Shown piece after piece: positions 24,734 through 54,715 of a stretch of 64,000 nucleotides of DNA (the stretch's first letter is position 1; each line of letters begins with the position of its first letter). Made by a program: the position numbers and the translations under genes. Source of the stretch: Candidatus Bathyarchaeota archaeon (GTDB lineage: Archaea; Thermoproteota; Bathyarchaeia; Bathyarchaeales; Bathycorpusculaceae); contig JAMDCQ010000002.1 in the NCBI GenBank assembly GCA_023488905.1, forward strand, positions 1 through 64,000. Reading direction: 5' to 3'. The notes below the pieces were generated by a model. It saw nothing but the letters and a program-made list of their open reading frames with translations. It was not told the DNA's origin and did not search any database.

Positions 24734-25353
24734 GTGCGCTTTGAAACGGTTTATGCCGTAAAAGCTTTTCTTTTTATTTTTTAAAACTGCCTTTTTTATT
24801 TACAGTAGCTTAAAAGTTTTTTCTGCTTGCAGAAGTCACCCCAACCAGCTTGCAGTCACCTAAGCCCGCTGAATCCAAAAGCCCGCCCAAAGCCGCATTC
24901 TTGTGGCGCCAATTCGCCTTTAAATAAGGGAGGGGAGGTCAGCTTTGAGAGGTCGCGTGGTTTTTGATGTTGCTTGTTTGTTCAGTGAACTGGTGGTTGA
25001 ACTTCTGTTTGTGCCTTTATATAAGGGGGGCTATAGAAAAAAATCGCAGCTGACCCTGCCTCAAGCTGCCTCGCCAAGCGGAACTGCTTGCGGAAAACGC
25101 CACGACCAGCTTGCATATGCTGCTTAAGCCTAAACCCAAAAAAGCAGTCGCCTGCACAGGCGGCTGGAAGAATAAGCAAGAGGAGCCCACAGCAACTACT
25201 AAAACTATATTTTTGACCTACCGATAATAAGGGTTCTTTTTCTAAAGTCGGCATCTAAACTGGCTTAAACCTGAATAAAACTCTGGTTGTGTTGGTAGCG
25301 CAAAAGTTAGATAACAAAAAAGAAAAAGTGCGAGTGTTTGTACACTCGATTTG
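24734..25353. other. Intergenic region between convergent genes, repeat-bearing
   Basis: The first 180 bases hold T-rich tracts after the ATPase stop, which could end transcription. The alpha/beta repeat pair fills 24915-25055. Short frames on both strands are repeat-derived, and none has a convincing ribosome-binding site. Confidence 0.5.
24915..25055 (+). repeat. Alpha/beta repeat pair, second full copy
   Basis: The alpha motif GCCTTTAAATAAGGGAGGGG then AGGTC is at 24916-24940, with the GGTCGCGTGG tail at 24951-24960. The beta motif (GCCTTTATATAAGGGGGG, then CTATAG, an A-run, TCGCAGCTGA) begins at 25013. This copy gives an uninterrupted alpha site for comparison with the interrupted one at 41121-41450. 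Confidence 0.75.
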
Positions 25354-39577: not shown

Positions 39578-40297
39578 TTGAAACCTAAAAGTTACAGACG
39601 CGGCTACCCCGTCGCCGTCCTCATCGGAGTCGAAGTAGACCACGCTGCACTCTGGCAAATTTACAGTCAAGTGGCCAAACCCCAACAGACCATACCGCTC
39701 ACCGATAGACGCGACCAAAAAGCCCTCTATAACTTCCACGAAAACATAATCAACGCATTGCGCCCCACTTTCAAAGAAGGAGTGCGGAGCATTATAATCG
39801 CCTCTCCGCCAAGAACTAACTATGCACAAGAACTTCAGATGCACATAAGTGGCCATCACTCTTGGCTTACCTCAGGAAACAACAAAGCATCCATCGCCAT
39901 TATTTCGGGTTCAGCCAGCACGGCACCGCAAATCGCAGCCTTGACTCAAAAAGCCGTCTTCAAAGAGTTAATCCAAGAAAACGCTCAGCAGGAAACCGAA
40001 AACCTCCTGGAAATCCTCGAAAAACGCCTCAATGCTCCCGGCAATCTGGTGCTTTTCTCGTTGCAGGAAACTGAAACATTCATCCTAAACCCGCAGACAC
40101 CAGGTAAACCTCAGCCTGAATATCTCCTGTTGACTAATGAGTACCTATCGAGCAGCCGCCAAAAATATCGCGTGAACAGATTAATGCAGGTGGCCCAAAA
40201 CAAAAAAATTAAAAACCGAGTAATCGACGCTGAATCCAAAGCTGGAGCCCGTTTGACGCAGTTGGGCGGTCTTGTTTGCTTGGCAAAACGTGACTAA
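39578..40297 (+). CDS. eRF1/Vms1-like protein of unknown role
   Basis: The 239-residue protein looks like the central and C-terminal domains of the eRF1/Pelota/Vms1 group. VAVLIGVEVDHAALWQIY and IIIASPPRTNYAQEL suit domain 2. The last 40 residues (NRLMQVAQNKKIKNRVI, then ARLTQLGGLVCL) suit the L7Ae-like domain 3. No GGQ motif is present, so it is not a canonical release factor. A ribosome-rescue or tRNA-related role is a family inference. The start is TTG 39578. Confidence 0.65.
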   Translation: MKPKSYRRGYPVAVLIGVEVDHAALWQIYSQVAKPQQTIPLTDRRDQKALYNFHENIINALRPTFKEGVRSIIIASPPRTNYAQELQMHISGHHSWLTSGNNKASIAIISGSASTAPQIAALTQKAVFKELIQENAQQETENLLEILEKRLNAPGNLVLFSLQETETFILNPQTPGKPQPEYLLLTNEYLSSSRQKYRVNRLMQVAQNKKIKNRVIDAESKAGARLTQLGGLVCLAKRD

Positions 40298-41022
40298 AGG
40301 AAACCTTCCCGCTTTAGGTCCGCAACAGATATTTTGCCTGTGTGGAGTGCTGTGGCAATTAAAACGCCTGATGCACCTAACGTTTTTAATTCGACTAAAT
40401 CTTGGATGCCCCTGACGCCCCCGCCAACATAAACCTCCAAACCCAAATCAAGGGCTGCTTTTAGGAAAGCCATGTTAACCCCCTCACCGCTGCCCACCCG
40501 CGCCAAATCCAAAACAATAACCTGCCTAACGCCCATGCCTTTGAACTCTTCCAAAAGGCATATTGGATCGGGGTAGTCGTCAAACTCGGGTTTAGCCAGC
40601 ACCCTGTCGCCCTTCAAGTCTAAGCTAATCATTATTCGGTCGCCGTCGAACTGCCTGAGTGCGTCTGCTATGAAGGTTTTAGACGTTACGGTTTCGGTGC
40701 CGATCACGAGTTTGGAGACGCCTGTTTCGAGGAGTTGCTGCGCTCTGTTGAGGCTGGTTATTCCCGCGTCAACCATCAAATTGAGCCCAGACCCTTCGAC
40801 TATGCCCTTGAGTATAGAGAAGCCAGATGAGCAGTCAACTATGGCGTCCAAATCAGCAACATAGAGTTCGCTAAAACCCTGTGCTTTGAATGACTGGGCA
40901 ACTTCAAGGGGTATGGCTGATTTTGTGATGATGCTTTGAATTGGTTGGTACTGGCTACGTAAGCCTCTGACGGCGTGAACTGCAACTCCGTTTAGGATGT
41001 CAATTACTGGAATAACCTTCAC
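40294..41022 (-). CDS. HisA/HisF-related TIM-barrel protein
   Basis: The 242-residue protein has the HisA-like start VKVIPVIDILNGVAVHAVRG, an LYVADLDAI strand, MVDAGITS and the C-terminal phosphate loop VGGGVRG and GASGVLIATALH. It belongs to the archaeal HisA/HisF-related group, not to true histidine biosynthesis, since no his genes are near. GTG 41022 aligns with the usual N terminus. It is divergent from the mfn operon, which hints at a role in cofactor synthesis; that link is inference from position. Confidence 0.78.
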   Translation of the reverse strand: MKVIPVIDILNGVAVHAVRGLRSQYQPIQSIITKSAIPLEVAQSFKAQGFSELYVADLDAIVDCSSGFSILKGIVEGSGLNLMVDAGITSLNRAQQLLETGVSKLVIGTETVTSKTFIADALRQFDGDRIMISLDLKGDRVLAKPEFDDYPDPICLLEEFKGMGVRQVIVLDLARVGSGEGVNMAFLKAALDLGLEVYVGGGVRGIQDLVELKTLGASGVLIATALHTGKISVADLKREGFL

Positions 41023-41120
41023 GCTTAAACCCACCTCAATTGAGTCGTACACCTAAAAAAACGTAGCCATACGGCGACGGGACATAATTGAGGCCTACCT
41101 GAGAGGGGTGGTTGGTTTTT

Positions 41121-41450
41121 GCCTTTAAATAACAGTAGATCAAAAAGTGAGGTTTGTTTGGCGGTCTGGTTGGGTTGTTTGGTTCTTGTGGAAGAAATAA
41201 GCAGTCGATACATGGTTTCACATGCACATGGCGGCGGTTTCAACATGGCGCTATGTTGTTCTTGTGGAAAAAATCCCACAGCCCACACCGAAACAGAAGC
41301 AGAAAACCGTTGCAAACCCAAAAAGCAACCGCACTCAACTGCCGCCGTGTGGTGTGCCGTAAACCGCCGCACCCACATAAAGAGTACAGAACAAACTTTT
41401 GATCTACTGATAAGGGAGGGGAGGTAGACACTGAGACGTCGCGTGAATAT
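41121..41450 (+). repeat. Alpha repeat interrupted by an inserted element
   Basis: The left part GCCTTTAAATAA is at 41121-41132 and the right part ATAAGGGAGGGGAGGT starts at 41410, followed by the GTCGCGTG tail. Removing 41133-41413 rebuilds the alpha motif as seen uninterrupted at 24916 and 50139. Confidence 0.8.
41133..41409 (+). mobile_element. 277-base non-autonomous transposable element (MITE-like)
   Basis: The left end begins CAGTAGATCAAAAAGT and the right end, read on the other strand, begins CAGTAGATCAAAAGTT. That is a 13-base perfect terminal inverted repeat extended by a one-base gap. ATAA directly flanks both ends (41129-41132 and 41410-41413), as a 4-base target duplication. The host repeat has a single ATAA at this point in its uninterrupted copies. 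There is no transposase frame inside, so the element would need an enzyme from elsewhere. Overlapping short frames inside are probably not genes. Confidence 0.82.
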
Positions 41451-41534: not shown

Positions 41535-42266
41535 GTGATACCCTTGAAGCTCCTCATCAGCCCCACAAACCCAACCGAAGCACTCGAAGCCATCGCTGGA
41601 GGAGCAGACATAATCGACGTCAAGAACCCCAAAGAAGGCGCACTCGGAGCCAATTATCCGTGGGTTATCAGAAAAATCAGGGAACAGACGCCGAAGGGCA
41701 TAGAGGTCAGCTGCACGTTGGGCGATGTTCCAAACCTTCCGGGCTCCGTGTCGCTTGCAGCACATGGCGCGGCTTCGTTGGGGGTTGACTACGTTAAAGT
41801 TGGGCTTTACGGAGTAAAAACGCCGCGTGAAGCGGTTTTTCTACTAAAGCAAGTCAAGAGAGCCGCCAAAGAGTGTAACCCAAAAATCAAAGTCGTCGCC
41901 GCCGGCTACGCAGACGCAGAAAAAATCGGCACACTACTCCCCTCGCTTATACCGAAAATCGCCCACAACGCAGAGGTCGAAGTTGCGATGCTTGATACAG
42001 CCACCAAAGACGGCACAACCCTCTTTGACCACCAAACCCCCGAACACCTCAAAGCCTTCGTTGATGCCTCACACGGTTTCGGTTTGTCTGCGGCGTTGGC
42101 GGGGGCACTGCGAAAACAGGATTTACCCACGGTTTACGGTTTAGGCGCTGACATAGCAGGGTTAAGAGGAGCCGCATGCACAGGCAACGACCGCAACAAG
42201 GGACAAGTTACCCGTGAACTCGTGGCGGAATTGGCAAAAGCCGTAAAGCAGGCGAAGAGGTTTTGA
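41535..42266 (+). CDS. mfnB: (5-formylfuran-3-yl)methyl phosphate synthase
   Basis: MfnB joins two glyceraldehyde-3-phosphate molecules to make the furan ring of methanofuran. The 243-residue TIM-barrel protein has the family start LKLLISPTNPTEALEAIAGGADIIDVKNPKEGALGA, where the Lys of DVKNPKEG is in the active site, and later AMLDTATKDG. The start is GTG 41535 (TTG 41544 also possible). It is the first gene of the mfnB-A-D-F-E operon. Confidence 0.93.
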   Translation: MIPLKLLISPTNPTEALEAIAGGADIIDVKNPKEGALGANYPWVIRKIREQTPKGIEVSCTLGDVPNLPGSVSLAAHGAASLGVDYVKVGLYGVKTPREAVFLLKQVKRAAKECNPKIKVVAAGYADAEKIGTLLPSLIPKIAHNAEVEVAMLDTATKDGTTLFDHQTPEHLKAFVDASHGFGLSAALAGALRKQDLPTVYGLGADIAGLRGAACTGNDRNKGQVTRELVAELAKAVKQAKRF

Positions 42267-54402: not shown

Positions 54403-54715
54403 GGGCTTGGTGTGCTGGTTGTAACCCGCCTTCTGTTGTCTGTGGCATTCGGCTAATCGGGCTACCCGCGCCTTCCGGCAGAGTCTTCATCGGCGACTGT
54501 TTGCCCTTTCCACTTGCAGGACGGCCGTTTCACCGTTTCCACTCCAGCGGGCTCTGCATCACTAATGCGTCATTGCCGTGTCTGGGTGGACGTTTCGTTT
54601 CTGCTCCGTTGCCAAGCTTTTCAGCTTGTCCCGTTTGGGACTGCAATTCTGCGTGTGGGCGGAGTTTCCTCAGTCCCCATTTGGGACCGATAGCCACACA
54701 CCAACACACCAGCCC
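54403..54715 (-). ncRNA. rnpB: RNase P RNA
   Basis: On the minus strand the universally conserved CR-I segment GAGGAAACTCCGCCC is at 54657-54671 and the CR-V segment ACAGAAGGCGGGTTAC is at 54421-54436, which together form helix P4. The two ends pair as helix P1: GGGCTGGTGTGTTGGT at 54715 with ACCAGCACACCAAGCCC ending at 54403. The 313-base length suits an archaeal type A RNA. A TTTATTG box is about 28 bases upstream (54738-54749). Short protein-like frames across the region are therefore not genes. Confidence 0.88.

Follow-up and report, generated by a model that had tools for sequence, protein, structure and literature searches.

Genes and Features at the Locus

We analyzed a window of 64,000 nucleotides at the start of contig JAMDCQ010000002.1, in assembly GCA_023488905.1 of a Candidatus Bathyarchaeota archaeon. 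Between a HisA/HisF-type protein gene and a gene for (5-formylfuran-3-yl)methyl phosphate synthase (4-HFC-P synthase) lies a 277-bp element that interrupts a dispersed repeat, the alpha module (Table 1). The synthase scored 323.1 bits against NF002573, for which the cut-off is 341. Elsewhere in the window, an archaeal RNase P RNA was found on the minus strand at 54410-54709 (196.9 bits).

Table 1. Positions in the window of the element, its host module, the neighboring genes and the empty sites
Feature	Position	Strand	Evidence
HisA/HisF-type protein gene	40294..41052	-	TIGR00734 4e-43, below cut-off; Pfam His_biosynth 1.2e-43
Host alpha module, left part as far as the insertion point, CCTTTAAATAA	41122..41132	+	
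Target-site duplication ATAA, left copy	41129..41132	+	Single copy at empty sites 24918 and 50141
MITE without transposase gene, 277 bp	41133..41409	+	Exact terminal inverted repeats, ATAA flanks, many genomic relatives
Left terminal inverted repeat CAGTAGATCAAAA	41133..41145	+	13/13 matched by right end
Core, matching part of a dispersed repeat found without these ends in the same genome and in other species	41179..41384	+	
Right terminal inverted repeat, exact reverse complement of CAGTAGATCAAAA	41397..41409	-	
Target-site duplication ATAA, right copy	41410..41413	+	
Host alpha module, remainder, ATAAGGGAGGGGAGGT...GAGACGTCGCGTG	41410..41450	+	
4-HFC-P synthase gene	41535..42266	+	Pfam 4HFCP_synth 1.4e-78; NF002573 8.6e-97
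Empty site, uninterrupted alpha centre CTTTAAATAAGGGAG, one ATAA	24918..24932	+	
Empty site, uninterrupted alpha centre CTTTAAATAAGGGAG, one ATAA	50141..50155	+	

The original prediction, made from the letters of the window, had described an element with its ends in inverted orientation and ATAA on both sides, set in a repeat that occurs uninterrupted elsewhere with a single ATAA. Both descriptions held: the ends agree at all 13 positions, and the two empty sites each carry one ATAA. Beyond the element's own two ends, no exact copy of CAGTAGATCAAAA was found in the window. When up to two mismatches were allowed, there were seven sites in the window against 1.86 expected, with a maximum of four in 100 shuffles. 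Three overlapping ORFs inside the element (102, 154 and 137 aa) gave no Pfam match at E 0.1, in keeping with the earlier view that it holds no transposase and is non-autonomous.

Empty alpha centres are uniform throughout the genome. A search for CTTTA-N(0-10)-TAAGGGRG returned 92 matches (control, 0), and the spacer was 2 bases long in every one of them, which means that the empty form does not vary in length. By eye, ATAA is present in 91 of these 92 centres, the exception being CTTTATTTAAGGG at C3:70708, and none of the 92 shows an excision footprint. Terminal inverted repeats are a general trait of MITEs. The stretch 41133-41409 is a real MITE: it is short and bounded by such repeats, it has a target-site duplication and matching empty sites, it lacks a transposase gene, it is multicopy, and it has a likely autonomous partner that shares its ends, described below.

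We compared 10 of the 30 loci holding the 4-HFC-P synthase gene. Four relatives (G013, G014, G024 and G006) keep both neighbors, and neither the element nor the alpha module has a match between the two genes there. The prediction had named, as evidence against it, relatives that all carry the 277 bases at this place without ATAA; these four lack them. In G007, which is without the HisA neighbor, 15 bases some 100 bases ahead of the synthase gene match the module centre exactly (E 0.026); the match may be due to chance or mark an older empty site. The alpha-like centre on contig C3 of G007 is uninterrupted and near the position of the filled module in the window. Because the element is nested in the module, the module is the older of the two.

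Copies of the Ends in the Genome and in Its Relatives

The genome that contains the window (G000; 1.79 Mb in 23 contigs, 90.94% complete) was compared with 31 relatives of the same genus (G0xx labels). A search with the element gave at least 45 matches in its own genome with 40 of 145 candidates scored; five of the matches are short flank matches. The corresponding search with the alpha module scored 40 of 96 candidates, and this module is held by two Candidatus Bathyarchaeota MAGs. Exact copies of the 13-bp end number at least 36 in G000, and at up to one mismatch there are 76, compared with 1 in the control. Among the relatives, a clear excess was seen only in G009 (55 vs. 4) and G007 (13 vs. 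2); the others were closer to their controls, such as G014 (13 vs. 5) and G013 (9 vs. 3).

Inverted pairs of the 13-base end, a search that the prediction had proposed, were sought in 81 stretches covering 260,052 bases, or about 15% of the 1.79 Mb. We kept 32 of the 45 pairs listed, the other 13 having been removed by a filter on mismatches and length or, in the case of two nested rows, by name. Thirteen of the kept pairs are 254-278 bp long, which is the class of the window element, and 16 are 163-184 bp long; the members of the shorter class that we read out have interiors unlike that of the window element. The remaining pairs measure 341, 353 and 1113 bp. A complete lack of further copies had also been named as evidence against the prediction, and many copies are present.

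Nine pairs of 177-424 bp were read in G009. Six of them have an exact 4-bp repeat (four TTAA, one ATAA, one GTAA), and GCTTTAA/TTAAATAAGGG is exact in two. In G007, one copy with both ends adjoins AAATAAGGGAGGGG. Two ends 1799 bases apart in G009 (C8:16095-17893) bracket genes of the Lrp/AsnC-type regulator and dinitrogenase iron-molybdenum cofactor types. This pair may be two neighboring elements, because its flanks, ATAA and CTAT, form no duplication.

An ISH3-like Insertion Sequence with the Same Ends

The 1113-bp pair is an insertion sequence (IS) at C22:38857-39969 of G000. It has the same exact 13-bp ends as the MITE, is flanked by TTAT on both sides, sits in the centre of an alpha module, as the MITE does, and carries an open transposase ORF of 347 aa. 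The original prediction had left the mobilizing enzyme unnamed and proposed looking for a full-length transposase gene with the same ends and a 4-base duplication; this IS is a strong candidate of that kind, in the same genome. The transposase matched the NCBIfam ISH3 model (4.3e-51, 173.8 bits) and Pfam DDE_Tnp_1 (1.1e-11). By eye, its DDE triad reads as D109, D187 and E276, and the residues around the glutamate, with positions counted by hand, spell F(2)R(3)E(3)R (F269-R272-E276-R280). The ISH3 model found one gene in this genome, that of the C22 transposase, which is the sole ISH3-type gene found.

According to an extract of the family description (PMC2266710), ISH3 elements typically measure 1225-1500 bp, have CRGT ends with direct repeats of 4-5 bp, and carry the motif Y(2)R(3)E(3)R. 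The C22 IS resembles this description in its single DDE ORF matching the ISH3 model, its archaeal host, the CAGT at both of its ends and its 4-bp TTAT duplication. It differs in being 1113 bp long, where the stated range is typical and not a strict rule, and in having F in place of the Y of the motif. It is also set apart by the narrow palindromic target module that it shares with the MITEs. Since its transposase scores below the model's curated cut-off of 225 bits, we call the element ISH3-like and do not file it as a member of ISH3.

The C22 protein matched two places in its own genome, the open copy and a piece at the start of contig C6. The first 126 bases of C6 are identical to the IS right end (126/126), and the flanking DNA differs. 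Contig C6 therefore probably starts inside a second copy of the IS. The perfect sequence agreement suggests recent movement, but it can also mark the point where the assembler stopped at a repeat.

When the IS was aligned with one MITE from each main class, convincing likeness was limited to the terminal 13-17 bases, so the MITEs do not appear to have arisen from it by simple internal deletion. A pair of ends 682 bases apart in G013 encloses just the first part of a transposase 57% identical to that of C22, and its makeup is as expected for a putative deletion derivative. Searches with the C22 transposase for relatives in a wider collection of genome contigs confirmed none, and no solved structure was similar at E 1. 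A structure predicted from the single sequence was of poor quality (mean pLDDT 43) and supports no reading.

These data raise the question of whether the C22 enzyme or a different one moved the MITE. A different transposase, now lost or encoded in the missing part of the assembly, could have done so, with the IS sharing its ends by descent only. There is room for such a gene in a genome 90.94% complete and divided among 23 contigs, and the G009 assembly has many elements and no transposase match despite its 55 ends, so the enzyme there is absent, missed or different. We nevertheless consider this quite unlikely, since the IS and the MITE agree in ends, duplication length and target, and since the right end of the IS is present a second time, unchanged. 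Very probably, the transposase that serves this non-autonomous MITE of 277 bases is borrowed from the resident ISH3-like IS. By sequence comparison, from their shared ends, duplications and target, we infer that the C22 IS mobilizes the MITE. Its transposase, or one just like it, would bind the 13-bp ends, make a cut staggered by 4 bases in a TTAW/ATAA target and move whatever lies between two such ends.

Target Sites and Flanking Sequences

Thirteen of the 32 pairs are flanked by exact direct repeats of 4 bp (ATAA, TTAA or TTAT). With right flanks re-dealt, the mean was 6.2 pairs, and 13 or more were reached with a frequency of 0.0001; the claim of transposition with a 4-base duplication thus stands. 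None of the 32 pairs has direct repeats of 3 bp or of 5-9 bp abutting its ends.

After removal of one duplicate, the joined sites of 14/32 pairs are within one mismatch of CTTTAWATAAGGG, and with the best of three joins this rises to 19/32 by hand count. As a control, only 14 of 786 TTAT, TTAA and ATAA four-mers in the window lie in such a core. From the sequences of these sites, the elements appear to favor the centre of CTTTAWATAAGGG modules strongly, and the same tendency is seen in a second species (G009). We speak of preference because the other joined sites fit CTTTAWATAAGGG less well. Certain bacterial ISs likewise insert into dispersed palindromes, the REP sequences, as reported in PMC1525189, and the elements here resemble them in using one position of such a palindrome. 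The likeness here is that a dispersed extragenic palindromic repeat is the preferred target; the differences are the archaeal host, the ISH3-like enzyme and the CTTTAWATAAGGG modules.

Alpha modules form part of a mosaic, and many are followed, some 76 or 97 bases further on, by a second CTTTAWATAAGGGG module. Between CTTTAWATAAGGG modules spaced about 76 bases apart there is, by eye, mostly a hairpin-like GCGGATACG...CGTATGCGC stretch. One example of paired CTTTAWATAAGGG modules is at 24918 and 25015 of the window. A degenerate pair of ends, with two mismatches each, encloses two alpha-type modules at 24803-25223, so modules and elements seem to be nested both ways.

Could the 277 bases instead be native to a longer intergenic repeat, with the alpha copies that lack them being deletions? 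The core does often occur without the ends, several times with alpha-like sequence shortly to its right. Yet deletion would have had to take out the element together with exactly one of the two ATAA copies, all 92 empty centres found are of one length, and elements of 163-184 bp and 1113 bp with other interiors have the same ends at the same centre, in both orientations. We therefore regard this explanation as hardly credible and continue with insertion of the element into the module.

In eight of the 32 pairs the flanks form no 4-bp direct repeat: TTAT stands to the left of the element and ATAA to its right. The reverse arrangement, ATAA and then TTAT, occurs in none of the 32. Two of the eight rejoin to a normal centre without any removal, four do so after an extra TTAT is dropped, and two do so neither way. 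These flanks can also be read as a 2-bp AT repeat: AT and similar 2-bp repeats occur in 10/32 pairs, a count that includes all eight. Removing 2 bp restores a normal centre (at most one mismatch) in 0/8. Because all 92 empty centres have one length, old footprints do not explain the TTAT/ATAA flanks.

As a tentative explanation, possible but on balance not the one we expect, two elements may have inserted into one palindrome, with later recombination removing one copy and the intervening TTATATAA. Such a history predicts TTAT/ATAA and never ATAA/TTAT, which fits the eight against zero observed. On its own it leaves the four copies with an extra TTAT unexplained, the alternative 2-bp reading applies to the same flanks, and no tandem intermediate was found in the 32 genomes of the genus (exact 8-base ends, 0-24 bases apart).

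Of the 11 occurrences of TTTAWATAA in the window, 7 lie within the CTTTAWATAAGGG core, so the centre may be more important than the arms. This motif presumably resembles the archaeal TATA consensus. A more specific idea, which we think very improbable, is that the ISH3-like transposase inserts at the exact centre of the palindromic, TATA-like TTTAWATAA, perhaps guided by a host factor such as TBP, and yields two products, one with a 4-bp duplication and one with TTAT/ATAA flanks and no 4-bp direct repeat. We found nothing relevant on archaeal transposases targeting TATA-like hotspots in literature that takes in a minority of subscription journals.

Interior of the Element

The core of the element has a wider distribution than its ends. 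In the stretches read, it occurs at 41 places in G000, with both ends at 16, one end at 7 and neither at 18. It also matches 10 of 81 genomes, a count that includes G000 and, weakly, G070, from three genera. The family is multicopy, and its TGTG and CACA blocks are invariant. Within the stretches read, the interior of the 174-bp class occurs at 37 places and is bounded by both ends at 14 of these.

Some copies of the core continue further to the left: 6/18 of the end-less copies in G000 and 10/21 of the copies in the relatives. No end-bearing copy (0/23) showed this left extension above the control maximum, although one in G000, at C5:33136, came close with a score of 28 (maximum 29) and may retain part of it. 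Because the query was composed by eye from end-less copies, its absence from end-bearing copies is the test. In end-less copies of G000, among them those at C5:37995, C10:7034 and C17:2035, the extension is preceded by GTGAAAATTTTTTATTAGG, which looks promoter-like by eye.

From these distributions, the ends appear to have captured parts of resident repeats, and the MITE interior was probably acquired when they came to bracket part of the dispersed repeat. The opposite direction, in which end-less core copies are decayed MITEs and not the source of the interior, would account for the 7 of 41 places that retain a single recognizable end and for the alpha-like sequence near a number of end-less copies. 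We judge it unlikely because of the left extension, found in end-less copies (partly by construction) and, above the control maximum, in no end-bearing one.

We also asked whether the core might encode a protein or a structured RNA. By a count made by eye, one frame is open in 28 of 39 anchorable copies (of the 41), a result that leans slightly toward coding. The three codon positions vary to a similar degree across the core as a whole (0.279, 0.282 and 0.235) and less evenly in its middle (0.306, 0.258 and 0.192). Overall, a protein-coding core finds little support. At gathering scores, the core in the window had no Rfam match, and six core loci gave a single sub-threshold match, outside the core. 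RNAalifold on 53 sequences (32 of 40 copies from G000 and 21 of 26 from relatives, with 8 of the former and 5 weak ones of the latter excluded) predicted 18 pairs, none with a compensatory change. Neither Rfam nor RNAalifold thus supports a structured RNA.

Comparison with Known MITEs and Significance

The SM1-SM4 families of Sulfolobus solfataricus are archaeal MITEs, as described in an extract of PMC10969869, and the window MITE is like them in being short, multicopy and without a transposase gene. Two apparent differences are that a single set of ends here serves two or more classes of interior, and that the interior of the window MITE is common to a dispersed repeat of several species. In literature reaching a minority of subscription journals, we found no published account of ISH3-family MITEs in archaea, of MITE transposons in Bathyarchaeota, or of insertion sequence or transposase repeats of Bathyarchaeia.

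A MITE with its IS is a system known in kind, and this one is informative in detail. What goes beyond the first reading of the window is the apparent target preference, the putatively repeat-derived interior and the TTAT/ATAA flanks. An uncultured archaeal lineage gains a nearly complete MITE system, with ends, duplication, target module, enzyme candidate and a second species. It includes a miniature element whose interior was probably taken from an older dispersed repeat, and target choice by an ISH3-like transposase could now be tested with short synthetic substrates.
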